In this document: piece after piece, positions 7,249 through 25,295 of the stretch
How positions within the stretch are numbered: position 1 is the stretch's first letter
Layout: each line of letters begins with the position of its first letter
NCBI RefSeq assembly: GCF_003367905.1
Contig: NZ_CP029462.1
Coordinates: 558,001-622,000 of the forward strand
Source: Megasphaera stantonii
Lineage (GTDB): Bacteria > Bacillota > Negativicutes > Veillonellales > Megasphaeraceae
Direction: 5' to 3'
DNA: 64,000 nt
Notes under the pieces: generated by a model
The model's input: only the letters and a program-made list of their open reading frames with translations
Database searches by the model: none
What the model was told of the DNA's origin: nothing
Position numbers and translations under genes: made by a program

Positions 7249-8847
7249 ATGATACATACGTATGGATTAGAACGAATCGGAATTTTTTACCCGGCAAACG
7301 TGTACCGCAACATGTCTCCGGCCTGGCTGACCGAGCAGGCCCTGATTCGCGGCGAAGGCATGCTGAGCGACACGGGAGCCTTAGTCGTCCAGACAGGGAA
7401 ATATACGGGCCGTTCGCCGAAGGACAAATTCATCGTCGACACGCCGGCCATCCACGAATACATCGCCTGGAACAACGTAAACCGCCCGATTTCGCGGGAA
7501 AAATTCGACGCCCTGAAGGCTAAGATGACGGCTTATTTGCAGAACCGCGATATTTTCCTTTTCGACGGCTTTGCCGGCGCCGATTTAGTATGCCGCAAAA
7601 AATTCCGCATCATCAACGAATTAGCCAGCGAAAACCTGTTTATCCGCAACCTGCTCATCCGCCCGACAGCCGACGAATTGAGCCAGTTCGGCGACCCGGA
7701 CTTTACGGTCATCGTCACGCCGGGCTATCGCTGCGACCCGAAGACGGACGGCGTCCGTTCCGAAGCGGCTATCATCATCGACTATGAAACGCGGGTCGTC
7801 CTCATCGCCGGAACCCAGTACGCCGGCGAAATCAAAAAGAGCGTTTTCTCCGTCATGAACTACTTCCTGCCCGACGAAGGCGTCCTGCCCATGCACTGCT
7901 CGGCCAACATGGACCCGGTCACAAAGGAAACAGCCATCTTCTTCGGCTTGTCCGGCACGGGCAAAACGACTTTGTCGGCAGATCCGAACCGCAAGCTCAT
8001 CGGCGACGACGAACACGGTTGGTCGCCGCGGGGCATCTTCAACTTCGAAGGCGGCTGTTACGCCAAATGCATCAACTTAAACGCCGAAAAGGAACCGGAT
8101 ATTTACAACGCCATCCGTTCGGGAAGCCTCGTGGAAAACGTCGTCCTCGACCCGGCAACGCGGCGGCCGAACTATTTCGATAGCAAGTATACGGAAAACA
8201 CCCGCGTCGGCTATCCTATTGAATACATTCCCAATGCGGCCATTCCTGGCATCGGCGGCATCCCAAAGGTCATCATCTTTCTGACGGCCGACAGCTTCGG
8301 CGTCCTGCCGCCCATTTCCCGCCTCAGCAAGGAAGCTGCCATGTACCACTTCATTACCGGCTTTACGTCGAAAGTAGCCGGCACGGAACAGGGCATTACT
8401 GAGCCTGTGCCGACCTTCTCCACCTTGTTCGGCGAACCCTTCATGCCCCTGGCTCCGGAAATCTACGCCGGCATGCTGGGCGAACGAATCGAAACGTATC
8501 ATACAAAGGTCTTCCTGGTCAACACCGGCTGGACCGGCGGCCCCTACGGCATCGGCAGCCGCATGGACCTCAAGTACACCCGCGCCATGATTACGGCAGC
8601 CCTGAACGGCCGCCTCGATTCGGTCCCCTACAAGCACGACAGCCGCTTCAACGTCGACGTGCCCCAGTCCTGCCCGGGCGTCCCCAACCAGATCCTCAAC
8701 CCGCGCGATACGTGGGCCAATAAAAAATCTTACGACATCATGGCCGACAAGGTAGCCGCCATGTTCCATGAAAACTTCACGGAAAAATATCCCGACGTCC
8801 CGGAAGAAGTCAGCGACGCCGGCCCGAAACCAAAAGCCAGGCTATAA
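7249..8847 (+). CDS. pckA: phosphoenolpyruvate carboxykinase (ATP)
   Basis: Interconverts oxaloacetate + ATP and PEP + CO2 + ADP. In a fermenting anaerobe it may run toward either gluconeogenesis or CO2 fixation. The phosphate-binding loop GLSGTGKT is at residues 233-240, followed by the metal-binding GDDEHGW stretch, and the N-terminal TGRSPKDKF substrate motif is present. Its 532 residues are typical of the ATP-dependent enzyme. The start follows a G-rich Shine-Dalgarno. The gene stands alone, with a promoter at 7139 and a shared terminator at 8874. Confidence 0.97.
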   Translation: MIHTYGLERIGIFYPANVYRNMSPAWLTEQALIRGEGMLSDTGALVVQTGKYTGRSPKDKFIVDTPAIHEYIAWNNVNRPISREKFDALKAKMTAYLQNRDIFLFDGFAGADLVCRKKFRIINELASENLFIRNLLIRPTADELSQFGDPDFTVIVTPGYRCDPKTDGVRSEAAIIIDYETRVVLIAGTQYAGEIKKSVFSVMNYFLPDEGVLPMHCSANMDPVTKETAIFFGLSGTGKTTLSADPNRKLIGDDEHGWSPRGIFNFEGGCYAKCINLNAEKEPDIYNAIRSGSLVENVVLDPATRRPNYFDSKYTENTRVGYPIEYIPNAAIPGIGGIPKVIIFLTADSFGVLPPISRLSKEAAMYHFITGFTSKVAGTEQGITEPVPTFSTLFGEPFMPLAPEIYAGMLGERIETYHTKVFLVNTGWTGGPYGIGSRMDLKYTRAMITAALNGRLDSVPYKHDSRFNVDVPQSCPGVPNQILNPRDTWANKKSYDIMADKVAAMFHENFTEKYPDVPEEVSDAGPKPKARL

Positions 8848-8873
8848 GGTCTGATACTGCTTCTTTCATGCAG

Positions 8874-8915
8874 AAAACCGTAAGGAAAGGCGTTTCGCCG
8901 TCTCCTTACGGTTTT
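8874..8915. terminator. bidirectional terminator between pckA and the phosphohexomutase gene
   Basis: Thirteen-base perfect arms, AAAACCGTAAGGA (8874-8886) and TCCTTACGGTTTT (8903-8915), so T-runs follow the stem on both strands. It serves two convergent genes. Confidence 0.9.
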
Positions 8916-8939
8916 CTTATATCATGTACTAATATTTAT

Positions 8940-10451
8940 TTAGGCGTCAAATATAGTCATGTCCAGGCAGTTGAACCCATCCAGGAAGGATTTGACCTGG
9001 GCGATGATATCCTGGCAGCCGCCTTCTTCCTTGCTTTCGACGTTCAGCGGCATGTTCGGGTCGTGGAGGGACATGCGCAGGAGCGCCCAGCCTTCGGGGA
9101 ATACGAGGCGCACGCCTTCGTACGACGGCTTGGCGACGACGACGCCGGCGGCGACGGCCCGTTCTTCAAAGGCTTGCAGGACCGTTTCACCGTAAGCCTT
9201 TACGTCGTCCGTGCCCTGAATTTTGAGGCGGTATTCCTTGCTTTCGGCGGGATGCTTCAAGTTTGCAACCAAATCGCCGACAGCTTTCCCCGCTTTATTG
9301 GCCTGAGCCGCTGCAATGAGCAGCTTGACCGCCAAATAGGCTCCGTCGTCGAGGTAGTAGTTTTCGCTCAGCGCGCCGTGGCCTGACGTTTCAATCGCTA
9401 AGGGCGATACGACGCCGCTCTGGTTGAGGCGGATGCATTCGTTGATGACGTTTTTATAGCCCCGCATGTAGCGGTGATGGATGAGATGAAGCTCATCTTG
9501 CAGGAAGGCCGTCAGCTCGTCCGACGTGACCGAGTCCGTGACGATGGTGCTGCCCGGATAGTCGGGAGCCAAGATGGCCGCCATCATGGCGATGAGGGCA
9601 TTGCGGTTGATGGCTTCACCATCGGGCAGGACGGCGCTCATGCGGTCTACGTCCGTATCGAAAATGAGGCCCAAATCGGCATGGTTGTCGAGAACAGCTT
9701 TGCTGATCGCCGCCATGGCCTCTTTATTTTCCGGATTCGGAATATGATTGGGGAACATGCCGTCCGGTTCGAGGAACTGGCTGCCCGTCGTATCGGCGCC
9801 GAGGACGTCGAGGACCTTCGAGGCAAAGAAGCCGCCTGCGCCGTTGCCGGCATCGACGACGATGCGCATGCCTTCCAAGGGCTTGCTGTCCGGGCCTGCG
9901 CCTACGCCGCTGCGGATTTTGGAGCACAGGTGCTCGGCATATATATCGATAATCGGCAGCGTCTGCACGCCGGACACATCGCCGTGTGTTTCTTCCAGCG
10001 ACGCCGCCCGGGTCAGGACGTCTTTAATATCAGCCTTTTCCAGACCGCCGTCTTTCGTAAAGAATTTCAAGCCGTTGCGGTTGTACGGCAAATGGCTGGC
10101 CGTAATCATGATGGCCCCGTCCATATGAGTCGATTCGAAGATAATCGACATGAACATAGCCGGCGTCGAAGCCAAGCCGCAGTCAAATCCGGCTACGCCG
10201 CAGGCGCAGAGGCCTTCCAGCACGGCCTGCTTCATCGTGCCGGCAGAAATACGCGAATCATGGCCGACGGCGACGCGCAGGCTGTCGACAGGTTTGCCCG
10301 TCTTTTCCGCTAAAAAGGAGGCAAAGCCGGCGGCAATGCGGTTCGCCGCTTCGGGAAACAGCGTCACGGGCTCGCCGGGAACGCCTTCTACGGCGACGCC
10401 GCGGACGTCGCTGCCGTTCTGCAACTTCATCATATCTGATTCTGTAATCAT
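8940..10451 (-). CDS. phosphomannomutase / phosphoglucomutase family protein
   Basis: Alpha-D-phosphohexomutase moving phosphate between C1 and C6 of hexose phosphates. The phosphoserine motif TASHLPYNRNG places Ser at residue 119, and the metal loop DTDVDR is at 265-270. The sugar-binding stretch appears as IETSGHGALSENYYLDDGAY. Its 503 residues fit the ManB/Pgm group. The ATG at 10451 is preceded by GGGAGTG. Mannose versus glucose specificity cannot be told from the sequence. It is divergent from the EamA permease gene. Confidence 0.9.
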   Translation of the reverse strand: MITESDMMKLQNGSDVRGVAVEGVPGEPVTLFPEAANRIAAGFASFLAEKTGKPVDSLRVAVGHDSRISAGTMKQAVLEGLCACGVAGFDCGLASTPAMFMSIIFESTHMDGAIMITASHLPYNRNGLKFFTKDGGLEKADIKDVLTRAASLEETHGDVSGVQTLPIIDIYAEHLCSKIRSGVGAGPDSKPLEGMRIVVDAGNGAGGFFASKVLDVLGADTTGSQFLEPDGMFPNHIPNPENKEAMAAISKAVLDNHADLGLIFDTDVDRMSAVLPDGEAINRNALIAMMAAILAPDYPGSTIVTDSVTSDELTAFLQDELHLIHHRYMRGYKNVINECIRLNQSGVVSPLAIETSGHGALSENYYLDDGAYLAVKLLIAAAQANKAGKAVGDLVANLKHPAESKEYRLKIQGTDDVKAYGETVLQAFEERAVAAGVVVAKPSYEGVRLVFPEGWALLRMSLHDPNMPLNVESKEEGGCQDIIAQVKSFLDGFNCLDMTIFDA

Positions 10452-12499: not shown

Positions 12500-14470
12500 T
12501 TATAAGCCTAATACTTTTTTGCCTGCATTCAATACTTTTATAATTTGATCTACATCGTAAACAGTGCCTTTCCAGGCGCCTCCGCTTACATCCTGCAACG
12601 CAGCCCATAACCGCGTATCATCCGGCAAATCTTCATCTGGACGGACATCCGGATTCGTTTCACGTTTAGCTAATTCAGCAGCACCTTCCTCATAGGTCAT
12701 AGGCTGATCTTCTGTGCCGATAAAGTTCAAACTGCCTTCAAGTTTAACCGTGTCGACAATAATTTCTACAATATCGCCGTCTCTCAATTTACCAATGGGG
12801 CCCCCTGCCAACGCTTCAGGTCCAACATGTCCAAAGCAAGCGCCAGTAGAAACACCGGAGAACCGAGCATCTGTAATCAAAGACACATGTTTACCAAAAG
12901 GTAAATTCTTCAAAGCAGACGTCAGCTGATATGTTTCTTCCATCCCTGTTCCCAACGGACCGCCGCCCATGACAACCATGATATCGCCAGCAACAATTCG
13001 GCCCGGTTCTTTCAAAGCAGTAATAGCAGCTTTTTCAGAAGTAAATACCTTAACTTTAGCAGTATGTCTGAATACATGGTCATCGTCAATTACACTCGGG
13101 TCAATGGCTGTAGATTTGACAACTGCGCCTTCCGGAGCAATATTGCCAACAGGGAACGTAACTGTCGAACCAATACCCTTTTCTTTAGCTTTTTCAGGAG
13201 AGAAAATAACTTCATTAGGATCAAGATTATCCACTTCCTGCAAACGTTTGCGGCATGCTTGACGCCGTTCCGAATTTTCCCACCAATCAAGATTTTCACC
13301 AAGAGTACTGCCGGTAACTGTCATTACATCTTCATGCAGCAAGCCTAATTTGCGCAAATGCAGCATAACTTCCGGAACACCGCCAGCCAAGAATGCTGCC
13401 GCTGTCGGATAATTGACCGGTCCAATTGGTAATACACTGACCAAGCGAGGAACTTCCTTATTAATACGTGCCCAATCTTCAACAGTTGGTCTTCTGCAGC
13501 CAGCAGCATATGCAATAGCTGGCAAATGAAGCAATAAATTCGTCGAACCGCCAAAGGCTGCATGAAGAATCATAGCATTTTCAATAGCGTGATCAGTCAA
13601 GACATCTTTAGTCGTAATACCATTCTTTTCCATTTCAACAGCTGCAATAGCCGATTTTCTGGCAATATCTTTCCAAATTACAGATCCGGACGGAGCCAAG
13701 GCAGAATGAGTTAACGCCAAGCCTAAAGATTCTCCAATTACCTGTGAGGTTCCAGCTGTACCAAAGAACTGACAGCCGCCGCCAGAACTTGCACAAGAAC
13801 TGCAGCCAAGGCGAATAGCATCTTCATAAGATAATTCCCCATTAGCAAAGCGCACGCTGATTGTCTGTACTGTACCAAGGTCTTCCCCTTTATTCGGCAT
13901 CAGAGTAGAACCACCCGGAACTAAAACTGTAGCAATATCATGCATGCTGGCCAAAGCCATCATCGTTGCCGGTAACCCCTTATCACAGGAGGCAATGCCA
14001 ATAACAGCTTTACGAGTCGGAAGAGAACGAATCAGTCTTTTCATAACAATAGCAGCATCATTGCGGTACGGTAAAGAATCAAACATGCCAATCGTCCCTT
14101 GAGTTCGGCCATCGCAAGGATCAGAAACAAAGGCTGCGTAAGGAACTAATCCCATATTTTTAATTTCATCTGCCGCTTCTGCAACCTGAATATCCAATTC
14201 ATAATGACCTTGATGAAGCCCAACAGCAATCGGACTGCCATCCGGATTACGGAGTCCGCCTTTTGTGCTTATAATCATTACATCGCCATTGGCTAAGGTA
14301 TCGGTATTCCAACCCTCACCAGCATTCATAGTCATGCCAAAAATGTTTCCGCTAGGTAATGTTTTCAACATATCCGGCGTCAAGGGCAATGTCCCCTTCG
14401 GTCCGTCTGCATGCGTTACGGCATCATAGATACCTTGCGGTTCATTTGTATACAAATTTTTAATAGACAT
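12500..14470 (-). CDS. yjhG: YjhG/YagF-type sugar-acid dehydratase (D-xylonate dehydratase family)
   Basis: Fe-S dehydratase of the IlvD/Edd superfamily that removes water from a sugar acid (D-xylonate in E. coli YjhG/YagF) to give a 2-keto-3-deoxy acid. It matches YjhG along its whole length as I remember that sequence, including the start (MSIKNLY then PSGNIFGMTMNAG) and VSDPCDGRTQGTIGMFDSLP. The cluster-region Cys lie in SCDKGLPATM and CSSCASSGGGCQF, and LGTGMEETYQ occurs near the C-terminus. Its 656 residues match the family. ATG 14470 follows GGAGAA. A DapA-type aldolase upstream reproduces the E. coli dehydratase-aldolase pairing. Substrate beyond xylonate-like acids is unproven. Confidence 0.92.
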   Translation of the reverse strand: MSIKNLYTNEPQGIYDAVTHADGPKGTLPLTPDMLKTLPSGNIFGMTMNAGEGWNTDTLANGDVMIISTKGGLRNPDGSPIAVGLHQGHYELDIQVAEAADEIKNMGLVPYAAFVSDPCDGRTQGTIGMFDSLPYRNDAAIVMKRLIRSLPTRKAVIGIASCDKGLPATMMALASMHDIATVLVPGGSTLMPNKGEDLGTVQTISVRFANGELSYEDAIRLGCSSCASSGGGCQFFGTAGTSQVIGESLGLALTHSALAPSGSVIWKDIARKSAIAAVEMEKNGITTKDVLTDHAIENAMILHAAFGGSTNLLLHLPAIAYAAGCRRPTVEDWARINKEVPRLVSVLPIGPVNYPTAAAFLAGGVPEVMLHLRKLGLLHEDVMTVTGSTLGENLDWWENSERRQACRKRLQEVDNLDPNEVIFSPEKAKEKGIGSTVTFPVGNIAPEGAVVKSTAIDPSVIDDDHVFRHTAKVKVFTSEKAAITALKEPGRIVAGDIMVVMGGGPLGTGMEETYQLTSALKNLPFGKHVSLITDARFSGVSTGACFGHVGPEALAGGPIGKLRDGDIVEIIVDTVKLEGSLNFIGTEDQPMTYEEGAAELAKRETNPDVRPDEDLPDDTRLWAALQDVSGGAWKGTVYDVDQIIKVLNAGKKVLGL

Positions 14471-14518
14471 ATATTTCTCCTTCCTAATACCGATTAAAAA
14501 TACCACATCAAAGAGTAT

Positions 14519-14601: not shown

Positions 14602-15083
14602 TTATTTTCCTTCTGTCTTCTTAGGCAATGTCAGCGTGAGCAGGAAGCCAGCAAATAAGCAGGCTGCCAAGAAATAAACACCAGCAAAAATGGACATAAA
14701 CTGCGTCGTAAGATAACCTACGATAAAGGGTCCGACGAAGCCGCCCAAATTCCCCAATGCGTTGATAATGCCCATGGAGCCACCGGCAACATTAGCCGGG
14801 AAAAGCAACGTAGGAATCGTCCAGAAAATACCGGAAGCGCACTGTAAGAAAAGCCCGCAACCACAAAGGAAAGCAAAGGATACCCAAGGCTGTGCTTGGA
14901 ACAATACCGATGCCAAGAAGCAGAGAGCAAAACCTAACAGAGGAAGAGCAACGTATTTCTTACGGTTACCGCTTCTGTCAGAAAGATGTCCGAAGATGTA
15001 CAAACCAGCCATGCAAGCAAAATACGGAATGGTCGAAAGGAAACCGATCATTGTCATGCTGGAAGATGTAAGATCGCGAATAA
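14602..15083 (-). pseudogene. MFS transporter, C-terminal fragment (gene split by IS256-family element)
   Basis: This is the 3' part of the ACS-type MFS gene whose 5' part lies at 16565-17359. Removing the 1481-bp element and one 8-bp target copy restores a single 423-codon frame, with the junction reading TIIRDLTSSS. The fragment holds the last five or so membrane helices (GNLGGFVGPFIVGYLTT and others). An ORF from 15111 continues into the element and would add about a dozen foreign residues. It is not expected to give a functional carrier. Confidence 0.9.
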
Positions 15084-16564
15084 GAGCCTGTGAAAAAATC
15101 TCTGTAAACATAGATCTTCTATGATACTCGGTAAGCTGAAAGCGAATTTGAGAACTTTCAGCTCATGGTTTATATATAACAACACATGCTGAACATGTCA
15201 AGTACAGACAGGATTTTCGCCTGCTTTTGCCAGCTATGCGTTACTCTGGGAGTCGGCCTTCGTACATTATGCTCAGTTCCCCATACACCTGTCCCCAGTT
15301 TCGGATTGGCATGGTCCATTTTTTGGTGGCTTCAAACGTCGCCAGATACAGGGCTTTTAAAAGCGCTGTATCGCTTGGAAATACGCTTCTCTGACGGTTC
15401 AGCTTCCGGTAGGTGGAATTCAGGGATTCGATGGCATTGGTCGTGTAAATCACTTTTCTTACGTTCATGGAAAACTTGAAAATTGGGCAGATGGCATCCC
15501 AGTTTTGCTTCCAACTTTTCATGGAATTCGGATATTTTACAGACCATGTTTTGGTTACCCTTTCCAGAGATTCCAAAGCCTGTTCTTCAGACGGAGCCTG
15601 ATAAATAGTCTTTAAATCATTGGCAAAAGGCTTACGATCCTTGTCTGCTACATATTTCAGCGTGTTTCGTACCTGATGTACGATGCAGCGCTGGTATTCC
15701 GTGTTAGGATAGGCTGCGGCGATGGCTTCTTTGATCCCGCTCAGGCCATCGGCACAGAGAATCAGGATATCTTTTACCCCGCGATTTTTCAATTCATTCA
15801 GCACGGAAAGCCAATATTTTGCGCTCTCATTGTCTCCGACCTGAATCGTCAGAACTTCTTTTTGTCCGTCTATGTTGATTCCCAGAATGACGTAGGCTGC
15901 CAGCTTCCGGATCACTCCGTTATCCCGGACAGAATAATGAATGGCATCAATATAGAGGACAGGATACACTTCCGACAGCGGGCGTTTCTGCCAGTCTTCA
16001 ATTTGAGGCAGGATTTTATCGGTTACATCGGAAATGAAGCCTTCGGAAGCCTCAAATCCATAGATATCCTCTAACGTTTCTGAAATTTGCCGGGTCGTCA
16101 TTCCCTTGGCATACATGGAGATAATTTTCTGGTCGATAGAAGAGATATCTTTTTGCCGTTTACGGACCACCTGCGGTTCGAACGTGGAGTTGCGGTCCTG
16201 CGGTACCTGGATATCTACGGTACCATACCGGCTGTTGACCCGCTTTCTCTTATACCCATTGCGGTAATCCTCGCTGTCAGACCGCTGGGATTTCTGATAG
16301 CCAAGGTGTTCGTCCATCTCGGTTTCCATCATTTCTTTGATGGTACCGCCCAGCAGGTCTTTCAGTGCTTCCTGAATATCTTCTGCGGATTGAATGTCAT
16401 ATTCTTGAAACAGTTGTTGAATAATGCTGCGTTTTCCTTCGGTCATAATGACCTTATGTACCGGTTTCTTTTCTCTTGCCATGATACTAAGCCTCCTATG
16501 ATTTAGATTGTATCATAGAAGACCTATACCTGGCAGTTATTTACAGAAAAAGCTTCACATAGTC
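15084..16564 (-). mobile_element. IS256-family insertion sequence, 1481 bp
   Basis: The ends begin GAGCCTGTGAAAAAA (from 15084) and, read inward from 16564, GACTATGTGAAGC. They are imperfect inverted repeats that share TGTGAA and CTGTAAA, and TCTTCTATGATAC lies further in on both sides. An 8-bp target duplication flanks it: GCGAATAA at 15076-15083 and 16565-16572. It carries one transposase and interrupts an MFS gene in its seventh or eighth helix region. The intact duplication indicates a recent or at least undisturbed insertion. Confidence 0.93.
15241..16482 (-). CDS. IS256-family transposase (mutator type)
   Basis: DDE transposase of 413 aa. The catalytic residues appear as the first Asp in LYIDAIHYSV, the second in LILCADGLSGIKEAI, and Glu in TTNAIESLNSTYRK, with the family motif RCIVHQVRNTLKYV between them. 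The start ATG 16482 follows AGGAGG at 9 nt. The frame is intact, so the element may still be active. It is transcribed in the same direction as the gene it disrupts. Confidence 0.95.
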   Translation of the reverse strand: MAREKKPVHKVIMTEGKRSIIQQLFQEYDIQSAEDIQEALKDLLGGTIKEMMETEMDEHLGYQKSQRSDSEDYRNGYKRKRVNSRYGTVDIQVPQDRNSTFEPQVVRKRQKDISSIDQKIISMYAKGMTTRQISETLEDIYGFEASEGFISDVTDKILPQIEDWQKRPLSEVYPVLYIDAIHYSVRDNGVIRKLAAYVILGINIDGQKEVLTIQVGDNESAKYWLSVLNELKNRGVKDILILCADGLSGIKEAIAAAYPNTEYQRCIVHQVRNTLKYVADKDRKPFANDLKTIYQAPSEEQALESLERVTKTWSVKYPNSMKSWKQNWDAICPIFKFSMNVRKVIYTTNAIESLNSTYRKLNRQRSVFPSDTALLKALYLATFEATKKWTMPIRNWGQVYGELSIMYEGRLPE

Positions 16565-17359
16565 GCGAATAATGGTAGGCAGCCACATAGCAAAACCATA
16601 AATCCCCGTCTGGTATGCAAAGTAAATCAAAATCAATTTCCACATGTTAAGACTGCCAAAAATCTGTCCTAAAGAAACCTTCCCGGTTTCACCGCTAATA
16701 GCAGCTTGTTCAGCTTCACGTGCACTGACGATATAATTACGTTCTTCTTCTGAGAGCCATTTAGCCGTTTTAGGATCTTCACTAATCATCGGCCACCATA
16801 CGAAGATCAAAAGCAAGGATACGAGACCTTCGACGATGAATACGGAACGCCAGCCATAGCTCGTTACAAGCCAACCAGAAACAGGACCTGTGATGATAGA
16901 AGCGATAGCAATGTTCATAATGAAGTACGAATTCGCTCTGCCGCGTTCCGATGCAGGGAACCAGTGGCTGAGGATAACGAGAACTGCCGGCCAAACACCG
17001 CCTTCAGCAACGCCGATAAGGAATCGGAGAATCAGCATATGCGCCGCCGTATCAACAAAACCTAACAGCACACACATGATACTCCATGCCAAGATAGCTC
17101 CAGCAATAAACTTCTTAGCATGTCCTTTTTCAGCCAATGCACCGCCAGGAACCTGAAGAACCATATACCCAACGAAGAAAATACCAGCTGCCAAACCAGA
17201 GAGCGTTGCAGTCATCTGCAGTTCTTCACTCATGCCTCCAGCCATAGCAAAACCAATATTTGTTCTATCCATAAAACCAAAAATGTAAACTAAAATACAG
17301 GGCGGAATAATCCGAGTCCATCGTTTTCCCGGAATATTTTTAGCAATTGCTTCAGCCAT
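16565..17359 (-). pseudogene. MFS transporter (ACS family), N-terminal fragment
   Basis: The first 265 or so codons of an anion:cation-symporter-type MFS carrier of the kind that imports hexuronates, glucarate or galactonate. FMDRTNIGFA in helix 1 and WFPASERGRANSY near helix 5 are typical of that family. After codon 265 the frame runs into the IS256-family element and ends at 16541 with foreign residues YVKLFL. It starts at ATG 17359 after GGAGTG. It lies 23 bp downstream of the LarA-like gene, so it was probably the importer of that operon. Confidence 0.9.
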
Positions 17360-17382: not shown

Positions 17383-18696
17383 TTAGAATAAATTGCCATT
17401 TTCATCAAACTGCATAGGAGCTACTTCCCCTATGATTTCCATATTAGGATTAGCTTCTACTTCCGGAATCAAGACTTCAGAAACTTCAATTTCCTCAATT
17501 TCCATTGTATTCTTAATACGAATAATGCGAGGTTGAAGTTTATCAGCACCTGCACAGGTTTTAACAGCAGCTTGTACAGCCAATCTGTCATTAGGAGTCC
17601 AGAACGGAATTTTAACCATTTCAAGAAGAGTAGAGGTAATAGCATTAGGATAAGCCATTTCATTTATGATCTTATCTACACACCGCTGTGTCGTGACATC
17701 TGCTAAACCTAAACCATTCGCATTACCATGAGTTTCTTCCGTTAAATCAAGAACTACAACACGTTTTGCTTTGAAATTACCAATACGCGGTTCAGAGCCA
17801 TCAGCACCGCGAGGAACACCCGTTTCACGAGGCAAAGTACCGGAAACATTCGGGTCCATGCCATCACCGCTGATATTTTTGCCAATTTCATCAACAATGA
17901 GAACATCAGCATTGTCAATAAGAATATGTCCCATTATTTTCTTGGCTTCCAAAAGAAGACTCGGCTCTTGTTCAATAATTTCATCAGGTGTAAGTGCTGT
18001 TAATTTATAGGTCTGATCAAATGCGTTTTCAATGGTGCCGATGCCACAAATAATAGGCGCATTCTTTAAAATAACTTTACCGTATCGCTGCAGATTTTCA
18101 GCCATTTTAGGGAAGCCCTGTTCATGAACGCCTTCTGCACCATGCTGCTTACCCATGCCGATAACAGCCATTTTCATGAGGCCGCTTTCATACGGACCTA
18201 CAAACTGCGTATGAGCTTTAATGCGGCCAACCATAATAATGCCGTCGGCTTCCGAAGCATATTTATCGATAAATACAGGCCGTCCATCATCAGTAACGCC
18301 AATCTGCTTCGTTTCCATCGATGCTTTGATAGGACATCCCATGGCTTCTTCCGTAATACCATACCCATTAACGATTTCAAGCTGACCTTCCGGAGTTGCA
18401 CCGCCATGACTGCCCATAGCAGGAAATACAAAGGGGCTTCCGCCTTTTTGTTTTACATAGTCAACAACAGCTTTAATGATGATATCAATGTTCGCAACAC
18501 CGCGGCTGCCGCAGGTAATGGCAATCGACATTCCCGATTTGATCTGAGATGCTATGATATCCCGATCTAATTCCTTCCAAATAACTTGCGGAATGTCTTC
18601 AGGCGCAATATACGAAGGATCAAAATGCTGTTTTACCTTTACCATTTTGGGAATCGCAATATCCTGGCACAAATTTGCAATAATGTTAGCATCCAT
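17383..18696 (-). CDS. LarA-like (DUF2088) protein, putative hydroxyacid/sugar-acid epimerase
   Basis: A 437-residue protein with a DUF2088/LarA-type fold signature. It has AITCGSRGVANID, then FVFPAMGSHGGATPEGQ (His at 97), then GRIKAHTQFVGPYESGLMK and GMGKQHGAEGVHEQGF, which provide further candidate His/Lys ligands. LarA of lactobacilli is a lactate racemase using a nickel-pincer nucleotide, and relatives racemise or epimerise other 2-hydroxy acids. The start ATG 18696 follows GGAGAG. It lies between the DapA-type aldolase and the MFS carrier, so a C2 epimerisation of a sugar acid is a plausible role. No larB, larC or larE is visible here, so cofactor supply is unknown. Confidence 0.75.
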   Translation of the reverse strand: MDANIIANLCQDIAIPKMVKVKQHFDPSYIAPEDIPQVIWKELDRDIIASQIKSGMSIAITCGSRGVANIDIIIKAVVDYVKQKGGSPFVFPAMGSHGGATPEGQLEIVNGYGITEEAMGCPIKASMETKQIGVTDDGRPVFIDKYASEADGIIMVGRIKAHTQFVGPYESGLMKMAVIGMGKQHGAEGVHEQGFPKMAENLQRYGKVILKNAPIICGIGTIENAFDQTYKLTALTPDEIIEQEPSLLLEAKKIMGHILIDNADVLIVDEIGKNISGDGMDPNVSGTLPRETGVPRGADGSEPRIGNFKAKRVVVLDLTEETHGNANGLGLADVTTQRCVDKIINEMAYPNAITSTLLEMVKIPFWTPNDRLAVQAAVKTCAGADKLQPRIIRIKNTMEIEEIEVSEVLIPEVEANPNMEIIGEVAPMQFDENGNLF

Positions 18697-18719: not shown

Positions 18720-19613
18720 TTATTTTAAGCCATTATCTTGTAAAATTTTCTCTACTTGCTGAACTTGCTCCGCCGTAATCGGATTAAATTCAAGACAATG
18801 CGTAGAAATATTCAATCCTCGCAGAGACATTGCCGTCTTTACTGCAGGAAGGAATGGCTCGTTAATCGTATAGAAATTCATCAATGAATTAATAATTTTT
18901 TGGTATTTTTCTATGTCTGCTACATTTCCATCATTAATAGCTTTTACCCAAGCCGAACATACTTCGGGAGCAATATTTGACAACCCGCCAATGCATCCAT
19001 TTCCTCCGCTCAGCATTGTATGCATCAAGCTTTCATCAAATCCAGACATTACGATAAAGTCAGGGAACTCGCCTTTTGTCGCATTAATCAATGCTCTTGT
19101 ATGTCCAAAGTTGTCAACCGTATCCTTATACCCTACAAGGTTCTTATGCTTGCGCAAAAGACGCAATGTAATTTCCGGAGTCAAATCATATCCAGAACCG
19201 CCGGGATAGTTATAGAGGAAAACATTGCCCTGAATCTGAGGAAGAATCTGGTCATAATACCATTCAATGTTTTGTGCTCCCAAGGTAAAGTAATAGGGCC
19301 CAATAATCATAACAGCATCGGCACCAGCTTGAAGAGCATAGTTAGATAATTCAACGGTTTCCTTCGGAGTCATGCAGCCTGTTCCTACTAAAAACTTTAC
19401 TCTGTGATTGATACAAGAAACTGCCACATCAATCAGCTGCTTTCGTTGCTCCATAGACATAGCGAAAAATTCACCCGAACTGCCCATAACAACAATCCCA
19501 TCTACGCCGCCTTTAATTAAATGTTCATACACGAGTTTATTACCACTGGCATCAACATTTCCATCTTGATCAAAAATAGTTACAACTGGCGAAAAATATT
19601 CGGCTTTTTTCAT
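18720..19613 (-). CDS. DapA/YagE-family 2-keto-3-deoxy sugar-acid aldolase
   Basis: Class I Schiff-base aldolase of the DHDPS/NAL family, 297 aa. The Schiff-base lysine is Lys163 in VGYKDT and the catalytic Tyr is about 134 in FLYNYPG; the family GSSGEF motif is near residue 44. In E. coli, YagE and YjhH are paired with YagF and YjhG and cleave 2-keto-3-deoxy pentonate to pyruvate and glycolaldehyde. The same pairing here favours that role over lysine biosynthesis. ATG 19613 was chosen because GAGGAG precedes it; the TTG at 19631 lies inside that Shine-Dalgarno. Confidence 0.87.
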   Translation of the reverse strand: MKKAEYFSPVVTIFDQDGNVDASGNKLVYEHLIKGGVDGIVVMGSSGEFFAMSMEQRKQLIDVAVSCINHRVKFLVGTGCMTPKETVELSNYALQAGADAVMIIGPYYFTLGAQNIEWYYDQILPQIQGNVFLYNYPGGSGYDLTPEITLRLLRKHKNLVGYKDTVDNFGHTRALINATKGEFPDFIVMSGFDESLMHTMLSGGNGCIGGLSNIAPEVCSAWVKAINDGNVADIEKYQKIINSLMNFYTINEPFLPAVKTAMSLRGLNISTHCLEFNPITAEQVQQVEKILQDNGLK

Positions 19614-19641
19614 ACAAGTTACGCTCCTCAACTTTCAGTTT

Positions 19642-20817
19642 TTAAACATAATTACATACACGAGCAATTGCTATTTCCATAAAACCTAGTGCTTCTGATT
19701 TTGTCTGCTTGCCATTAGCTACCTCAATCGTCAAATCAAGCAATTCTTTACCCAATTCTTCAATTGTTTTTTGTCCGTAAATTACAGGACTAGCATTGAA
19801 ATCCATGTTATCTTCCATCTTCTCATACGTGAGCTTATTGCCAGTAAGTTTGATAACAGGACAAATAGGATTGCCCATGACATTTCCTCGTCCCGTTGTA
19901 AAGACAACAACTTGGCAGCCGCCTGCAACCATCCCCGCTACAGACGAAAAGTCATTTCCCGGCGTATCCATGATAACCAGGCCTTTTTCATCAATTTGTT
20001 TAGCATAATCATATACGGCATTGATTTCTCGGTGACCACCTTTATGAATACATCCTAAAGATTTTTCTTCCAATGTAGTCAAGCCGCCGGCTTTGTTACC
20101 TGGAGACGGATTGCCTTCCCGAACTTCTTCACCAACGAGCTGAAGCGCTTTTTCATAGCGATGAACAATTTCGAAAATACGATTACGAACCTCTTCATTC
20201 TTAGCACGTCGAGCCAAAATGTGTTCAGCCCCAATAAATTCTGTTGTTTCACTCAAAATAGAAGTAGAACCTAAATCAACCAAACGGTCGCTCAGATCAC
20301 CAACTACCGGATTGGAAGCCAATCCCGACGTAGGGTCAGAGCCACCGCAGTTCGTACCTACAATTAAATGGGAAATATCAAATTCTTCCCGCTGAACCAT
20401 GCTGGCTTCAATTACCATCTCTCTGGCATATCGTACAGCCTTTTCTACAGCCTTGATCGTTCCGCCAGATTCTTGAATGATAACCTGCTTAATAGGCTTA
20501 TTTGTCCGTTCTTGAATGGCTTTGACAACCAAATCCATCTGACAGTTTTCACAACCTAACGATATAACAACAGTACCATAAATATTAGGATTAGCAGCGA
20601 AACCTGCCATTATATCCATTGTAAGCTGTTGGTCAGACGGAACTTGGGAACAGCCATTTTGATTATGAAAAGTGACTGTACCCTGAACCTGCTGAGAAAC
20701 AATACGGGCTGTATCAGTTGCACAAACACTTGCCGGTAATACTAACACGTAATTGCGTACGCCAACGCGGCCATCCGGTCTTTTATATCCGGCGAATTTA
20801 CAATACAAGTGCAACAC
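19642..20817 (-). CDS. UxaA/GarD-family dehydratase large subunit, 5' end displaced by IS30-type element
   Basis: Catalytic large domain of the altronate/galactarate dehydratase family. Motifs seen are GYKRPDGRVGVRNYV, VISLGCENCQ, GTNCGGSDPTSG and VAGGCQVVVFTTGRG, with Cys residues that would hold iron or a cluster. The IS30-type element sits after codon 5. The original start is the ATG at 21902, behind AAAGGAGGAG, reading MNFLG, and deleting the element plus one GG restores 387 codons. What remains can begin only at a weak in-element GTG (20817), giving MLHLYCKFAGY. Activity depends on reinitiation. It would pair with the small subunit at 21917. Confidence 0.85.
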   Translation of the reverse strand: MLHLYCKFAGYKRPDGRVGVRNYVLVLPASVCATDTARIVSQQVQGTVTFHNQNGCSQVPSDQQLTMDIMAGFAANPNIYGTVVISLGCENCQMDLVVKAIQERTNKPIKQVIIQESGGTIKAVEKAVRYAREMVIEASMVQREEFDISHLIVGTNCGGSDPTSGLASNPVVGDLSDRLVDLGSTSILSETTEFIGAEHILARRAKNEEVRNRIFEIVHRYEKALQLVGEEVREGNPSPGNKAGGLTTLEEKSLGCIHKGGHREINAVYDYAKQIDEKGLVIMDTPGNDFSSVAGMVAGGCQVVVFTTGRGNVMGNPICPVIKLTGNKLTYEKMEDNMDFNASPVIYGQKTIEELGKELLDLTIEVANGKQTKSEALGFMEIAIARVCNYV

Positions 20818-21888
20818 CTATAAAAAATGACACATAGGTTTCTGATATAATAATGCTACCAAACAAAATCTATATCTCGGAGGAAACCTATGTGCCACTA
20901 TCATCATCTTACTCTATCTGAACGAGAAAATCTACTCTTTTTTCGCGCGCAGTCCTATTCTATCTCTCGAATTGCGGCGGCCCTCGGCCGAGATAAATCC
21001 ACGATCTCACGGGAACTACGCAGAAATACAGTGAACGGCAAGTATCTGCCCATCACCGCACAACAACAGTATGCCCGCCGCCGTAAGGCATGCAAGCCTC
21101 ACAAGCGGTTAGAGAATGCCGAGCTATTCGCATTGGTTAAAAATCTCTTCCTGGTGCATCATTGGTCCCCAGAAGAAATTGCCGGACGCTTGCAGCTGGA
21201 ACATCAGAAGGCACTCCTTAGCTATGCAACGATTTACCGCGCCATATATGCCGGTATGTTTGATGAAACGTCGTCCTCCCATGGGTCCCGCGGTGCGGTC
21301 CGCCGCTTGCGGCATCATGGAAAATCCCGGCATACCCGGCAATATCAGGAACGACGGGGTTCTATTCCCATCTCTCACGATATTTCGGAACGGCCAGCAG
21401 GAGCCGCTAACCGCTCCCGGCGAGGACATTGGGAATGTGATACCATAGCAGGAAAGACAGGAAAAGCCTGTCTGGTTACGTTGGTAGATAGAAAGAGCCG
21501 GTATCTGGTAGGAGGCAAAGCAGCCAAAAAGACAGCACAAGCCGTCAATACGGTATTGCTTCAGGTACTGCAAGGGCAACCTGTAAAAAGCCTTACGCCG
21601 GACAGAGGAAAAGAGTTCGCCCATCATGCCGCTGTCACGGAGGCCTTGAACGGCGTGCCGTTTTATTTCCCGCCGCCGCATCAGCCCTGGCAGCGGGGAA
21701 GCAACGAAAATACCAATGGCCTAGTCCGAGAGTATTTCCCGAAAGGGACGGACATCACACTCGTTCCAGAAGCCTATGTGCAAGCTGTTTTTGCAGAACT
21801 AAATCGCCGTCCCCGAAAATGTTTAGGATACAAAACGCCATACGAAGTACATTACTCTAAAAAGTTGCACTTAGCTTGACAATTCGCC
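20791..21888 (+). mobile_element. IS30-family insertion sequence, 1098 bp
   Basis: The termini are GGCGAATTTACAATACAAGT from 20791 and, read inward from 21888, GGCGAATTGTCAAGCTAAGT. They are about 25-bp imperfect inverted repeats, both ending in GTGCAAC. The flanks carry a 2-bp duplication (CC at 20789-20790 and 21889-21890). The element lies within codon 5 of the UxaA large-subunit gene, in the opposite orientation to it. Length and short duplication fit the IS30 family. Confidence 0.92.
20890..21879 (+). CDS. IS30-family transposase
   Basis: A 329-residue DDE transposase. The N-terminal helix-turn-helix is HLTLSERENLLFF with ISRIAAALGRDKSTISREL. The catalytic triad is Asp in GHWECDTIAG, Asp in SLTPDRGKEF and Glu in RGSNENTNGLVREYFPKGTD, the IS30 signature. 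The ORF is intact and follows GGAGGAAACCT. The stop lies 9 bp from the element end. Confidence 0.95.
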   Translation: MCHYHHLTLSERENLLFFRAQSYSISRIAAALGRDKSTISRELRRNTVNGKYLPITAQQQYARRRKACKPHKRLENAELFALVKNLFLVHHWSPEEIAGRLQLEHQKALLSYATIYRAIYAGMFDETSSSHGSRGAVRRLRHHGKSRHTRQYQERRGSIPISHDISERPAGAANRSRRGHWECDTIAGKTGKACLVTLVDRKSRYLVGGKAAKKTAQAVNTVLLQVLQGQPVKSLTPDRGKEFAHHAAVTEALNGVPFYFPPPHQPWQRGSNENTNGLVREYFPKGTDITLVPEAYVQAVFAELNRRPRKCLGYKTPYEVHYSKKLHLA

Positions 21889-21916
21889 CCTAAAAAGTTC
21901 ATGTCATCTCCTCCTT

Positions 21917-22201
21917 TTAACCCAGATCTTCTCGAACATTTTTAACATTATGGACGTGAACATGTTCACCTTTTTTTACCAATCCGGCAGCATGTCCAAT
22001 ATGTTCTCCATATTTTACAATCGGTTCATCATCAGCAATATCCCGAATAGCAAATTTGTGGTAAATTTGAATGTCTTCAGCTGCAGTTAACTCGACAGCT
22101 TCCTTTTCAAAATTCAAATATGTAATGAGATCGCCTTTCTTGATCTGTTCAATTGCTACAGCAACATTGTCCTTTGGATCAATAATCATACCGTTAATCA
22201 T
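21917..22201 (-). CDS. UxaA-family dehydratase small subunit (SAF domain)
   Basis: A 94-residue SAF-domain protein equal to the N-terminal part of altronate/galactarate dehydratases, here encoded separately from the large domain. Recognisable stretches are DNVAVAIEQIKKGD and the C-terminal GEHIGHAAGLVKKGEHVHVHN, which has the His residues conserved in this domain. ATG 22201 follows AGGAGGCG. The stop precedes the original large-subunit ATG (21902) by 14 bp, so the two were one operon until the IS30-type insertion. The split two-subunit form is common in sugar-acid gene clusters. Confidence 0.88.
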   Translation of the reverse strand: MINGMIIDPKDNVAVAIEQIKKGDLITYLNFEKEAVELTAAEDIQIYHKFAIRDIADDEPIVKYGEHIGHAAGLVKKGEHVHVHNVKNVREDLG

Positions 22202-22251
22202 GTCTTATTTCGCCTCCTATTTTATATCCATATACACATACAACAATTAGT

Positions 22252-22290
22252 ATTCTATCCAAGACATCTGAAAAACGTCTTGGATAGAAT
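22252..22290. terminator. inverted repeat between MFS and UxaA small-subunit genes
   Basis: Perfect 14-base arms, ATTCTATCCAAGAC (22252-22265) and GTCTTGGATAGAAT (22277-22290), just downstream of the MFS stop. The minus-strand flank is only moderately T-rich (ACTAATTGTTG), so this may be a partial terminator or an RNA-stabilising stem within an operon. Confidence 0.55.
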
Positions 22291-22297
22291 ATATTTT

Positions 22298-23584
22298 TTA
22301 CGATTCCTGCTTTTTAAATGCTGCAAACAGTATCAAAGACAAAACACAACCTACTAAAACAGTGATCCCCATAAAGTAGAATCCACCGACAAAACTGCCT
22401 GTATAATCTTTTATCCAACCAATCGCAATAGGCGCAATAAATCCGCCCAAATTACCAATAGCATTGATAAAAGCAATACCAGTAGCCGCAGCACCACCTA
22501 CAAGAAACATTGGCGGAATTGTCCAAAAAATAGGCATGCAACCATAGAAGCCAATAGCACTGATAGAGATGAGAGCAATAGAAACACCTAATCCACTATT
22601 CAGAGCACCGCAAATAACCAAACAACCACCAGCTAATATCATGGCTCCAATCATATGCCACTTACGTTCCATATGCTTGTCAGAACTCCAGCCAATTGCC
22701 AGCATACCAACAGCTGCAACCACAAAAGGAACAGCACTAATCAAGCCAATCGTTGTAGTAGCCAGATCTCCACCAAAAGACTTAACAATCTGTGGAAGCC
22801 ACATATTTACACCAAATACACCAATAACCTGAGATACATAAATAATGGCCAAAATCCAAACCTTAGGATTCAGCATAGCTTGGAAAGTAGAAACCTTTTC
22901 TTTTGCTACAACTTGTTGCTTTTCTTTTTCCAATTCGTCAATCAAAAAATTTCTTTCTTCGGCAGTTAGCCAGTTAGCCTTTGAAGGATTATCAGTTAAA
23001 TACGACAATGCAATCAAACCAACAATAACCGTTGGGGCACCTTCTAAAATGAACATCCATTGCCACCCTGCTACCCCCATCATTCCGTCTAACGTAAGCA
23101 GCCAACCAGATACTGTCGAACCAATCATCAAAGCTAATGGTTGAGCAAACATGAAACGAGACGTAATTGATCCTCTATATTCTGCTGGAAACCATTGTGT
23201 CAAATAAAAAATAACGCCTGGAAAAAAGCCAGCTTCTACCGCTCCAAGTAGAAAACGCACCACTAAAAATTGTGTTGTAGTTGTAATAAATGCCATGCTA
23301 GCAGAAATACAGCCCCATACAGCTAACAACAACCCCAACCAGATTCTTGCCCCATATTTATTTAACCCTAAATTACTAGGAACGCCAAAAATTAAATACC
23401 CAATAAATAATATACCAGCGCCATAACCAAAAGTAGTGGCAGTCAATCCAAGATCTCTATTCATCTCCAAAGCAGCAAACCCTAAGTTAACGCGGTCAAT
23501 ATAGTTAAGCAAATAACAAAGTACTAAAAAGGGAATTAAACGCCAGGTTACTTTTGTAAATACCCTCTGTTTCATTTCTTCCAT
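22298..23584 (-). CDS. MFS transporter, ACS (sugar-acid symporter) family
   Basis: Twelve-helix carrier of 428 aa. Helix 1 has NYIDRVNLGFAALEM, the classic ACS start; the helix 4-5 region has EAGFFPGVIFYLTQWFPAEY; and the C-half has AFINAIGNLGGFIAPIAIG. Family members import glucarate, galactonate, hexuronates, phthalate or similar organic anions with protons. The gene lies 22 bp after the IlvD-type dehydratase, in the same operon, so the substrate is probably the acid that enzyme dehydrates. Confidence 0.92.
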   Translation of the reverse strand: MEEMKQRVFTKVTWRLIPFLVLCYLLNYIDRVNLGFAALEMNRDLGLTATTFGYGAGILFIGYLIFGVPSNLGLNKYGARIWLGLLLAVWGCISASMAFITTTTQFLVVRFLLGAVEAGFFPGVIFYLTQWFPAEYRGSITSRFMFAQPLALMIGSTVSGWLLTLDGMMGVAGWQWMFILEGAPTVIVGLIALSYLTDNPSKANWLTAEERNFLIDELEKEKQQVVAKEKVSTFQAMLNPKVWILAIIYVSQVIGVFGVNMWLPQIVKSFGGDLATTTIGLISAVPFVVAAVGMLAIGWSSDKHMERKWHMIGAMILAGGCLVICGALNSGLGVSIALISISAIGFYGCMPIFWTIPPMFLVGGAAATGIAFINAIGNLGGFIAPIAIGWIKDYTGSFVGGFYFMGITVLVGCVLSLILFAAFKKQES

Positions 23585-23606: not shown

Positions 23607-25295
23607 TTATAAATTTTTTAGCTTATCGTATTGAACAACTGCACCTTGTGCACCAGAACCAGCAATTTTGCAATATAAACCTAACCAACCTTTTTTGAAC
23701 TTAGGTTCCGGCCTTTTCCACTCAGCCAACCGTTTCGTTATTTCTTCATCATTTACAAGAAGATTCAATGAGCGGTTTTCAACATCAATTTCAATACGAT
23801 CACCATTTTTTACAATAGCAATAGGACCGCCTTCAGCAGCTTCTGGAGAAATATGTCCTACAAAACATCCATTATTTGTACCGCTAAAACGTCCATCTGT
23901 AATCAAAGCAGTTGTTTTAGCCAAACCTCTACCATATAAATACTTCATGGCCTTGAACATTTCGCGCATGCCTGGGCCGCCTTTAGGCCCTTCATAACGG
24001 ATAACTACAACATGACCATCTCGAACCTTACCAGCTAAAATTGCTTCTTCAGCCGCTTCTTCAGAATCAAAACATATTGCTTCTCCTTCAAAATGCTGCA
24101 GGCTCTTATCAAACGCTCCTGGTTTTGTAATACCTGTATCCGGAGCCAAATTACCGCGAAGAACAGCCACTCCACCTTCATACCCAAAAGGTTCATCCAT
24201 CGTTTTAATAATATTATTATTTTTAGGATACTGATATACGTGACTCTCTGTATTTTCCGCTACGGTATGAGCCGTAACTGTCATCGCATTCGTATAAATG
24301 ATGGAACTCATTTCTTCAAGCAGTTTGCTGACCCCACCAGCTTGATAAAAATCAATCATGTTATATTCTGAAGCAGGATTAATCTTAGCTAACTGCGGCG
24401 TATGTCTAGATAATTCATCAAATTCCGACAAAACATCAATATCTAGCTCTGCTTCACGAGCAATAGCAGTTAAATGCATAACTGCATTGGTACTTCCACT
24501 CATGGCCAAACAAATTTTAATCGCATTGCGAATACTTTCATTTGTAATAACTTGCCGAGCAGTAATTCCTTTTTCAACAAGTTCCATGATTTTTATGCCG
24601 GTAGCTTCTGCAATAGATAATCTGGCAGCTGAATAAGCTGGAATAATACCTCCATCAGGCAAGGTCATACCTAACGCTTCGGAAAGTGCACACATCGTGT
24701 TTGCGGTTCCTAAATACGAACAAGAACCACATGTTGGACAGGATAAATTTTCTAATGTTCTATATTCTTTCTCTGTAATTCTATTAGCAGACAACATGCC
24801 ATATGCTTCTGTACTTGAAGTCTGGTCAGATTTTCTGCCATCAAACACTATTCCACCTTCCATTGGTCCGCCAGGCAATAAAATGCAGGGAATATCTAAA
24901 CGAGCTGCTGCCATCAACATGCCTGGAACAATCTTATCGCAGGAACCTAATAATACGAGTCCGTCGAATAAATTAATCTGAGCCATCGATTCAACAGAAT
25001 TAGCTATCAGTTCTCGAGACGGCAAAATATAATGCATACCATCATGACCTTGCGCAAAACCGTCACAACCACCAATAACACCAAATTCAACAGGAGTACC
25101 TCCAGCTCGATAGATTCCATCTTTTACTCGTTGCGCCACCTGTCTCAAATTAAAATGTCCTGGAACACATTCACTCCATGCATTAGCTATACCAATAATT
25201 GGACGTTTTAAATCATCTGTAGAAAATCCCATTGATTTATACGTAGCACGATAATATTGGTTGTGCAATCCTTCGAGAATTTTTTCACTTCTCAT
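23607..25295 (-). CDS. IlvD/Edd-family sugar-acid dehydratase
   Basis: A 562-residue Fe-S dehydratase of the dihydroxyacid-dehydratase/6-phosphogluconate-dehydratase family. Cluster Cys are in GGCDG, LGSCDKIVPGML and LSCPTCGSCSYLGTANTM; the C-terminal part has TDGRFSGTNNGCFVGHISPEAAEGG. Context (MFS carrier, UxaA subunits, YjhG, aldolases) argues for a sugar-acid substrate such as an aldonate rather than valine/isoleucine synthesis; no other ilv gene is nearby. ATG 25295 follows AGGAGGAG. It is first in its operon, behind the operator-bearing promoter at 25323-25388. Confidence 0.9.
   Translation of the reverse strand: MRSEKILEGLHNQYYRATYKSMGFSTDDLKRPIIGIANAWSECVPGHFNLRQVAQRVKDGIYRAGGTPVEFGVIGGCDGFAQGHDGMHYILPSRELIANSVESMAQINLFDGLVLLGSCDKIVPGMLMAAARLDIPCILLPGGPMEGGIVFDGRKSDQTSSTEAYGMLSANRITEKEYRTLENLSCPTCGSCSYLGTANTMCALSEALGMTLPDGGIIPAYSAARLSIAEATGIKIMELVEKGITARQVITNESIRNAIKICLAMSGSTNAVMHLTAIAREAELDIDVLSEFDELSRHTPQLAKINPASEYNMIDFYQAGGVSKLLEEMSSIIYTNAMTVTAHTVAENTESHVYQYPKNNNIIKTMDEPFGYEGGVAVLRGNLAPDTGITKPGAFDKSLQHFEGEAICFDSEEAAEEAILAGKVRDGHVVVIRYEGPKGGPGMREMFKAMKYLYGRGLAKTTALITDGRFSGTNNGCFVGHISPEAAEGGPIAIVKNGDRIEIDVENRSLNLLVNDEEITKRLAEWKRPEPKFKKGWLGLYCKIAGSGAQGAVVQYDKLKNL

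Follow-up and report, generated by a model that had tools for sequence, protein, structure and literature searches.

A group 22 LarA homologue in a sugar-acid gene cluster of Megasphaera stantonii, a candidate nickel-pincer-dependent aldonate C2 epimerase

Introduction

Among the described proteins closest to the one reported here are the lactate racemase LarA (5HUQ and 6C1W) and the malate racemase Mar2 (6D6Z); for the mechanism of LarA, which serves below as an analogy, we draw on the excerpted text of PMC12611868. Nearer in proposed role are the D-gluconate 2-epimerases GntE (LarAH19 and LarAH20), sugar-acid C2 epimerases of uronate and aldonate catabolism that, according to the excerpted text of PMC11770544, usually carry E, V, A, and H at the positions of F175, F176, W358, and T359 of LarA. 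In gene content, the closest system is the D-xylonate pathway of Escherichia coli (YagEF/YjhGH), which combines a YjhG/YagF-type dehydratase with a DapA-family aldolase and whose operons appear as yagEFG and yjhIHG in the excerpted text of PMC13279387.

One family of LarA homologues, NF052515, is already named in NCBIfam as "nickel pincer cofactor-dependent isomerase, group 22," a name without a substrate. In the papers that we read, we found no assay of any group 22 protein. The 13 proteins tested in PMC7583248, as far as its excerpted text goes, do not include group 22, if the numbering of NCBIfam follows that paper, as we assume. The string "group 22" is absent from the main texts of PMC7583248 and PMC11770544, and Table S1 of PMC7583248 may already list group 22 neighbors. 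On lar genes together with gluconokinase or mannonate, we found nothing beyond these two papers. Here we describe a group 22 gene within 64,000 nucleotides (the window, positions 558001 to 622000) of the M. stantonii genome, a single contig of 2,652,760 bases.

Results

An earlier note on this DNA had proposed a LarA-like protein encoded at 17383 to 18696, next to a DapA/YagE-type aldolase and a carrier and near a YjhG-type dehydratase, and had given no strand. The coordinates proved exact for an ATG start, and the gene lies on the minus strand, in the following surroundings.

12500 to 14506, minus strand: YjhG/YagF-type D-xylonate dehydratase of the ILVD/EDD family (1091 bits, cut-off 808)
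14602 to 15111, minus strand: MFS carrier, C-terminal part, separated from the N-terminal part by an IS256-family element
15110 to 16527, minus strand: IS256-family element (transposase 15241 to 16482; inverted repeats 15110 to 15128 and 16509 to 16527), which splits the MFS carrier
16541 to 17359, minus strand: MFS sugar-acid-type carrier, N-terminal part, broken by the IS256-family element
17383 to 18696, minus strand: group 22 LarA homologue of 437 aa (NF052515), with R65, H97 and H162 (putative acid/base pair), K175 (proposed lysine for the nickel-pincer nucleotide [NPN]), and H191 (proposed Ni ligand)
18720 to 19631, minus strand: DapA/YagE-type (DHDPS family) candidate 2-keto-3-deoxy acid aldolase (DHDPS, 228 bits, cut-off 22.1)
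19642 to 20817, minus strand: large subunit of a GD_AH-type (altronate/galactarate) dehydratase, whose native start is displaced; what is left of the frame opens at a GTG near the end of an IS30-family element
20890 to 21879, plus strand: IS30-family transposase; the element (about 20800 to 21900) lies within the first few codons of the dehydratase large-subunit gene
21917 to 22201, minus strand: SAF-like small subunit of the split dehydratase, 94 aa, assigned by position and length (70% identity to the small subunit beside the large subunit in the related locus L144)
22298 to 23584, minus strand: second MFS carrier, resembling D-galactonate transporters (337.6 bits, below the cut-off of 395), which in Megasphaera relatives belongs to the same cluster but in a downstream position
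23607 to 25295, minus strand: ILVD/EDD dehydratase, dihydroxy-acid dehydratase-like, likewise a downstream member of the same cluster in Megasphaera relatives

The frame of the group 22 gene runs from the ATG at 18696 down to 17383, is complete and intact, and is preceded just 5' of the ATG by the Shine-Dalgarno-like sequence AAAGGAGAG. By profile match, the protein is a member of NF052515 (530.7 bits over the whole protein against a curated cut-off of 400); the match is full length and far above chance, with no sequence difference that sets this member apart from the family. Pfam Lar_N scored 34.5 bits (cut-off 23.3), and DUF362 matched weakly (25.8 bits, cut-off 24). The lactate racemase family NF033504 was absent from the five NCBIfam families matched at an E value of 0.001. 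The closest named relative among the matches listed was from Megasphaera sp. MJR8396C (80% identity), and the copy in another genome of the genus (G407) was 83% identical.

Single-sequence and profile searches of the PDB gave no significant match to LarA, returning weak myo-inositol-phosphatase-type matches and later 9q3j (E value of 0.34) and Mar2 (E value of 0.63), so that a fold search was needed. An AlphaFold2 model of the protein (pLDDT of 91.5) was compared by Foldseek, and 18 of 18 matches at an E value of ≤0.001 were LarA-family chains. Among the 1,000 best chains from Foldseek, 12 LarA-family entries stood at the top (Z of 19.2 to 21.0, rmsd of 3.3 to 5.4, 304 to 329 residues aligned), and the next structure had a Z of 6.7. 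The model thus predicts the LarA two-domain fold. LarA (5HUQ and 6C1W) and Mar2 (6D6Z) aligned with Z of 19.5 to 20.6 and rmsd of 3.9 to 5.4 over 318 to 327 residues, at an identity of only 12 to 15%. The entry 4NAR, which we take to be the GntE of Thermotoga maritima, aligned with a Z of 19.8 and an rmsd of 3.8 over 304 residues.

In profile-profile alignments, H108, H174, and R75 of LarA corresponded to H97, H162, and R65, with LarA numbering derived from an alignment between a paralogue and 5HUQ. One of these, a local alignment, did not pair K175 with K184 of LarA. A HMMER alignment to Mar2, not significant overall (E value of 0.63), paired K175 and H191 with the lysine of the SGGHK motif and the histidine that follows it; the LarA spacing of 16 between the two is kept, and the pattern S-G-x2-K-x4-G-x10-H is identical. 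From spacing, invariance, and this nonsignificant alignment, we propose that K184 and H200 of LarA correspond to K175 and H191. The earlier note had asked whether the nickel ligands might be missing. As judged from the alignments, the acid-base residues and the proposed NPN and nickel residues appear to be in place, and R65, H97, H162, K175, and H191 were invariant in 116 of 116 group 22 rows (a few of them near duplicates), including rows from genomes without lar genes.

Differences from LarA and Mar2 were also apparent: the protein has three more residues between H162 and K175, D72 of LarA lies opposite a gap in the group 22 profile, and the gene sits in a sugar-acid context. The C-terminal, substrate-binding half gave no trustworthy profile alignment with canonical LarA, leaving Q295 and K298 of LarA without mapped partners; the invariant K273, S276, and D281 are candidates for substrate residues of that kind. 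H162 is followed directly by T163, and 109 of 116 group 22 rows have T at this position. Applied to this protein, the GntE rule thus finds T where those epimerases, which belong to other LarAH groups, usually have E (PMC11770544, excerpted text), with the second position opposite a gap and the last two having no mapped position.

The cluster is transcribed in the order ILVD/EDD dehydratase, MFS carrier, SAF-like small subunit, GD_AH-type large subunit, aldolase, group 22, MFS carrier, and YjhG/YagF dehydratase. The aldolase and the YjhG/YagF dehydratase that the earlier note had named as neighbors were both found. Its adjacent carrier is there as an MFS frame, though only as the N-terminal part, split off by the IS256-family element, and the reading had overlooked the GD_AH-type large subunit and the SAF-like small subunit of the same unit. 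Compared with the E. coli pathway, the window adds the LarA homologue and the split altronate-type dehydratase; the E. coli genome, one of 14 controls, had no Lar_N match at an E value of 0.001. None of the ten operon genes scanned was gluconokinase-like. A 19-pair hairpin at 22251 to 22291, in the gap that separates the gene for the second MFS carrier from that for the small subunit, is possibly a terminator or an operator. A promoter scan was uninformative (38 sites versus 33.3 expected).

In the relative L144 (genome G407, same genus), small and large subunits, aldolase, group 22, an intact 423-aa carrier, and YjhG follow one another without a break, and the IlvD-type and second carrier genes follow downstream, versus upstream in the window. 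The order of large subunit, aldolase, group 22, carrier, and YjhG is common to L144 and L143/L063 (L063 being the same contig as G071:C5, of equal length and with identical gene coordinates). L143 (genome G071) has two group 22 copies (8158 to 9468 and 12556 to 13866) that bracket the dehydratase and aldolase genes, the second copy lying upstream of the small and large dehydratase subunits, versus one copy in the window.

Two insertion elements interrupt the window cluster. The carrier split by the IS256-family element is intact in L143 and L144 (423 to 428 aa); the ends of this element showed no perfect target duplication. The IS30-family element separates the GD_AH-type large subunit from the SAF-like small subunit: the original ATG of the large subunit is at about 21902, immediately beyond the small subunit, and from about 20790 on the sequence is again similar to L144. 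The ranges scanned for this element contained no exact terminal repeats of at least 8 bases. A translated transposase elsewhere in the genome (L005, 2286 to 3134) is by eye similar to the window copy, so the IS30-family element is probably multicopy in this genome. The sugar-acid pathway is probably impaired in this strain by the two elements, with the epimerase gene left intact.

The genome carries a cofactor pathway, the lack of which the earlier note would have taken as a refutation. We found larB and larC2 adjacent to each other (L012), larC1 (L006), and larE (L007), all above cut-off. LarC is split, larC1 lying at 1474 to 2316 of L006 and larC2 at 2141 to 2605 of L012, after larB and about 640 kb away. 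All matches above cut-off to larB, larC, and larE lie outside 558001 to 622000, in agreement with the earlier statement that the window has none. Three further LarA homologues are encoded in this genome, one above the lactate racemase cut-off and two above the LarAH10 cut-off, and the cofactor genes alone are therefore no proof of use by group 22. A DUF362/ferredoxin-like protein (assigned by eye; L005, 1090 to 2214) gave a weak Lar_N match of 22.6 bits, below cut-off. The uronate isomerase UxaC is encoded at 1747009, far from the window, which makes uronate-derived acids possible substrates of the group 22 protein in this genome.

We collected relatives with an alignment made from 44 group 22 open reading frames (ORFs), with the window locus copy L041 and the overlong L030 left out. 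The scan gave at least 590 relatives, of which the best 80, a nonrandom set, were taken as loci; 75 had a core ORF, the filter removing L064, L066, L067, L077, and L132. Within 8 kb of group 22, LarE was found at 21 of these 75 loci (from the best 80 of at least 590), LarB at 21, and UxaC at 9. LarE, LarB, and LarC1 (the last anywhere in the locus) occurred together at 17 of the 75.

In a Paenibacillus locus (L088), group 22 is followed in turn by a short-chain dehydrogenase similar to mannonate oxidoreductase (292.2 bits, cut-off 281), by LarE, by an FGGY kinase similar to gluconokinase (482.5 bits, below the cut-off of 648.55), and by LarB, LarC1, and LarC2. The set of short-chain dehydrogenase, LarE, kinase, and LarB recurred in 12 of the 75 loci (from the best 80 of at least 590), in Bacillaceae and Paenibacillaceae, a generous count, since the dehydrogenase query also matches other short-chain dehydrogenases. 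At L100, glucuronate isomerase lies just upstream of group 22. These clusters tie group 22 to NPN and to C2 epimerization of the D-mannonate/D-gluconate type, a connection that is new here and that strengthens the earlier idea of a C2 epimerase.

In a second recurring context, group 22 is accompanied by a TRAP carrier, by subunits of an altronate-type dehydratase, and by a large protein of the ILVD/EDD type. A homologue of that large protein was found near group 22 in 14 loci (from the best 80 of at least 590), not all with the TRAP carrier, and 5 of the 14 also had larE or larB. A canonical-type LarA gene is directly adjacent to the group 22 gene at L187 (6235 to 7494) and L188 (5508 to 6761) and two genes away at L161 (6444 to 7721). 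Because group 22 contexts vary so widely, the Bacillaceae operons do not reveal the substrate of the window member.

Sugar-acid genes lay within 6 kb at 12 of 20 group 22 loci versus 0 of 15 canonical LarA loci (P = 0.0002), neither set being random, the G loci having been picked by score, and the panel (dehydratases, DapA, gluconokinase-like, UxaC, and UxaB, with the short-chain dehydrogenase left out) favoring group 22, as it was drawn from the window operon and group 22 neighbors. One neighbor protein taken for DapA-type proved to be AraD1/FAA-hydrolase-like. The neighbor tally was usable in its Pfam version, the NCBIfam version being swamped by short-chain dehydrogenase models.

Group 22 was present in 85 of 398 sampled genomes of the phylum of the window. 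Of these, 61 had larB or larC and 24 had neither, absence meaning no match at an E value of 1e-20 (larC) or 1e-30 (larB) and some genomes being drafts. Searches for larE at 1e-20 and for PF01969 at 0.001 likewise found nothing in the 24, which include G007, G012, G019, G021, G049, G062, and 18 more; G021 and G190 are single contigs, with completeness of 100% and 99%. In G007, UxaC, group 22, a dehydrogenase, and a kinase lie in one stretch (L149). Neither larB nor larC was found in 61 of 198 canonical LarA genomes, a similar share, which rules out a lack peculiar to group 22 and makes the puzzle wider than this family. Genomes with group 22 and no canonical LarA had larB or larC in 17 of 31 cases versus 69 of 169 with neither LarA (P = 0.17), and genome co-occurrence, being weak, was replaced by gene-cluster evidence as an argument for NPN use. 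In a quick tree with SH-aLRT support only and a warning of long branches meeting (L063 and L115 left out), rows from lar-less genomes (families f57 and f10), with the residues intact, fell inside a 28-row set (SH-aLRT of 97) with lar-bearing Bacillaceae operons, and the window protein fell in a separate 40-row set.

Discussion

What the computations show is the family and fold of the protein, its invariant residues, the presence of cofactor genes in the genome, and the co-occurrence with sugar-acid genes; NPN binding, C2 epimerization, and the range of substrates are inferred. The protein is probably an NPN-dependent C2 epimerase of aldonic acids that feeds the dehydratase and aldolase of its cluster. 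By analogy with LarA, a thioamide linkage would attach NPN to K175, and H191 would serve as the remaining ligand of nickel. H97 and H162 would alternate as acid and base, removing and returning the proton of the C2 hydroxyl, while NPN would take the C2 hydride and return it on the other face, with a 2-keto acid as the intermediate. A dehydratase, of the YjhG/IlvD type or the split altronate-type pair, would then take up the epimer, and the resulting 2-keto-3-deoxy acid would be cleaved to pyruvate and an aldehyde by the DapA/YagE-type aldolase. Sugar-acid dehydratases of the ILVD/EDD family act on 2R,3S substrates, and a 2S-to-2R epimerase may therefore widen the diet. The substrate may be a hexonate (D-mannonate/D-gluconate or D-altronate/D-allonate) or a pentonate (lyxonate/xylonate), and no single one of them can be called likely.

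In the Bacillaceae-type arrangement, the route would run from glucuronate through fructuronate and D-mannonate to D-gluconate and 6-phosphogluconate; group 22 would serve as the mannonate/gluconate 2-epimerase, with its cofactor genes close by. Glucuronate isomerase, the mannonate-oxidoreductase-like dehydrogenase, and the gluconokinase-like kinase around group 22 genes, together with UxaC in the genome itself, speak for carrying this specificity over to Megasphaera, where the operon dehydratases would then act on gluconate or its epimers. We consider that transfer unlikely as a specific claim, given that the window protein groups with the 40 rows and not with the 28 rows that include those operons, that its operon has no gluconokinase-like gene among the ten scanned and UxaC is far off, and that T163 is not the usual GntE residue. 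A pentonate substrate (lyxonate/xylonate or ribonate/arabinonate) epimerized for dehydration by YjhG, in keeping with the earlier note's epimerase that feeds the dehydratase, is an equally doubtful choice: the YjhG/YagF-type dehydratase and YagE-like aldolase are in the cluster and their order is kept in L143/L063 and L144, but the carrier stands between YjhG and group 22, to which the aldolase and the altronate-type dehydratase lie closest, and at L022, L031, and L036 group 22 adjoins an altronate-type dehydratase with no YjhG-like match in the short flanks.

More remote is an enzyme of LarA fold that has given up NPN or employs it in another hydride-transfer isomerization. The 24 of 85 genomes with group 22 and no larB, larC, or detectable larE fit such a reading, as do the C-terminal half, unrecognizable by sequence next to LarA, and the weak DUF362 similarity. 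We hold it to be improbable, however, in view of the acid-base and proposed NPN residues that are invariant in all 116 rows, lar-less genomes included, of larE, larB, and larC beside group 22 in Bacillaceae and Paenibacillaceae, of the lar-less f57 and f10 rows within the set of lar-bearing operons, and of canonical LarA genomes that lack larB and larC about as often. A further possibility, that this strain keeps the gene as a relic with its operon inactivated and its protein out of use, deserves somewhat more weight but is still rather unlikely. The IS256-family element does split the carrier and the IS30-family element does displace the start of the large subunit, yet the group 22 frame, start, and Shine-Dalgarno-like sequence are intact, the protein is 83% identical to the G407 copy, and the insertions may be recent. 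Insertion elements can, moreover, carry outward promoters.

Most simply, the lar-less carriers would have lost the ability to make the cofactor and would receive it from elsewhere, although they may instead have stopped using it. The excerpted text of PMC11796402 describes the converse case, genomes with larB, larE, and larC but without larA. Our partial literature searches, which are no proof of absence, found nothing on point about supply or exchange of NPN. We put forward tentatively that the members of group 22, a large family, are aldonate C2 epimerases that depend on NPN and couple uronate and aldonate pools in many Bacillota and spirochetes, and that many of the genomes that carry it (24 of 85 sampled) are unable to produce NPN and need an external source.

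Two results deserve the attention of specialists, namely the lar-less carriers and the link of group 22 to lar genes and gluconokinase-like genes. The gene clusters narrow the substrates to a short list and point to an assay that is direct. One subclade with and without cofactor genes makes exchange of NPN between bacteria a testable question, and if an outside supply of NPN is true, the nickel-pincer nucleotide would be a shared vitamin of microbial communities.
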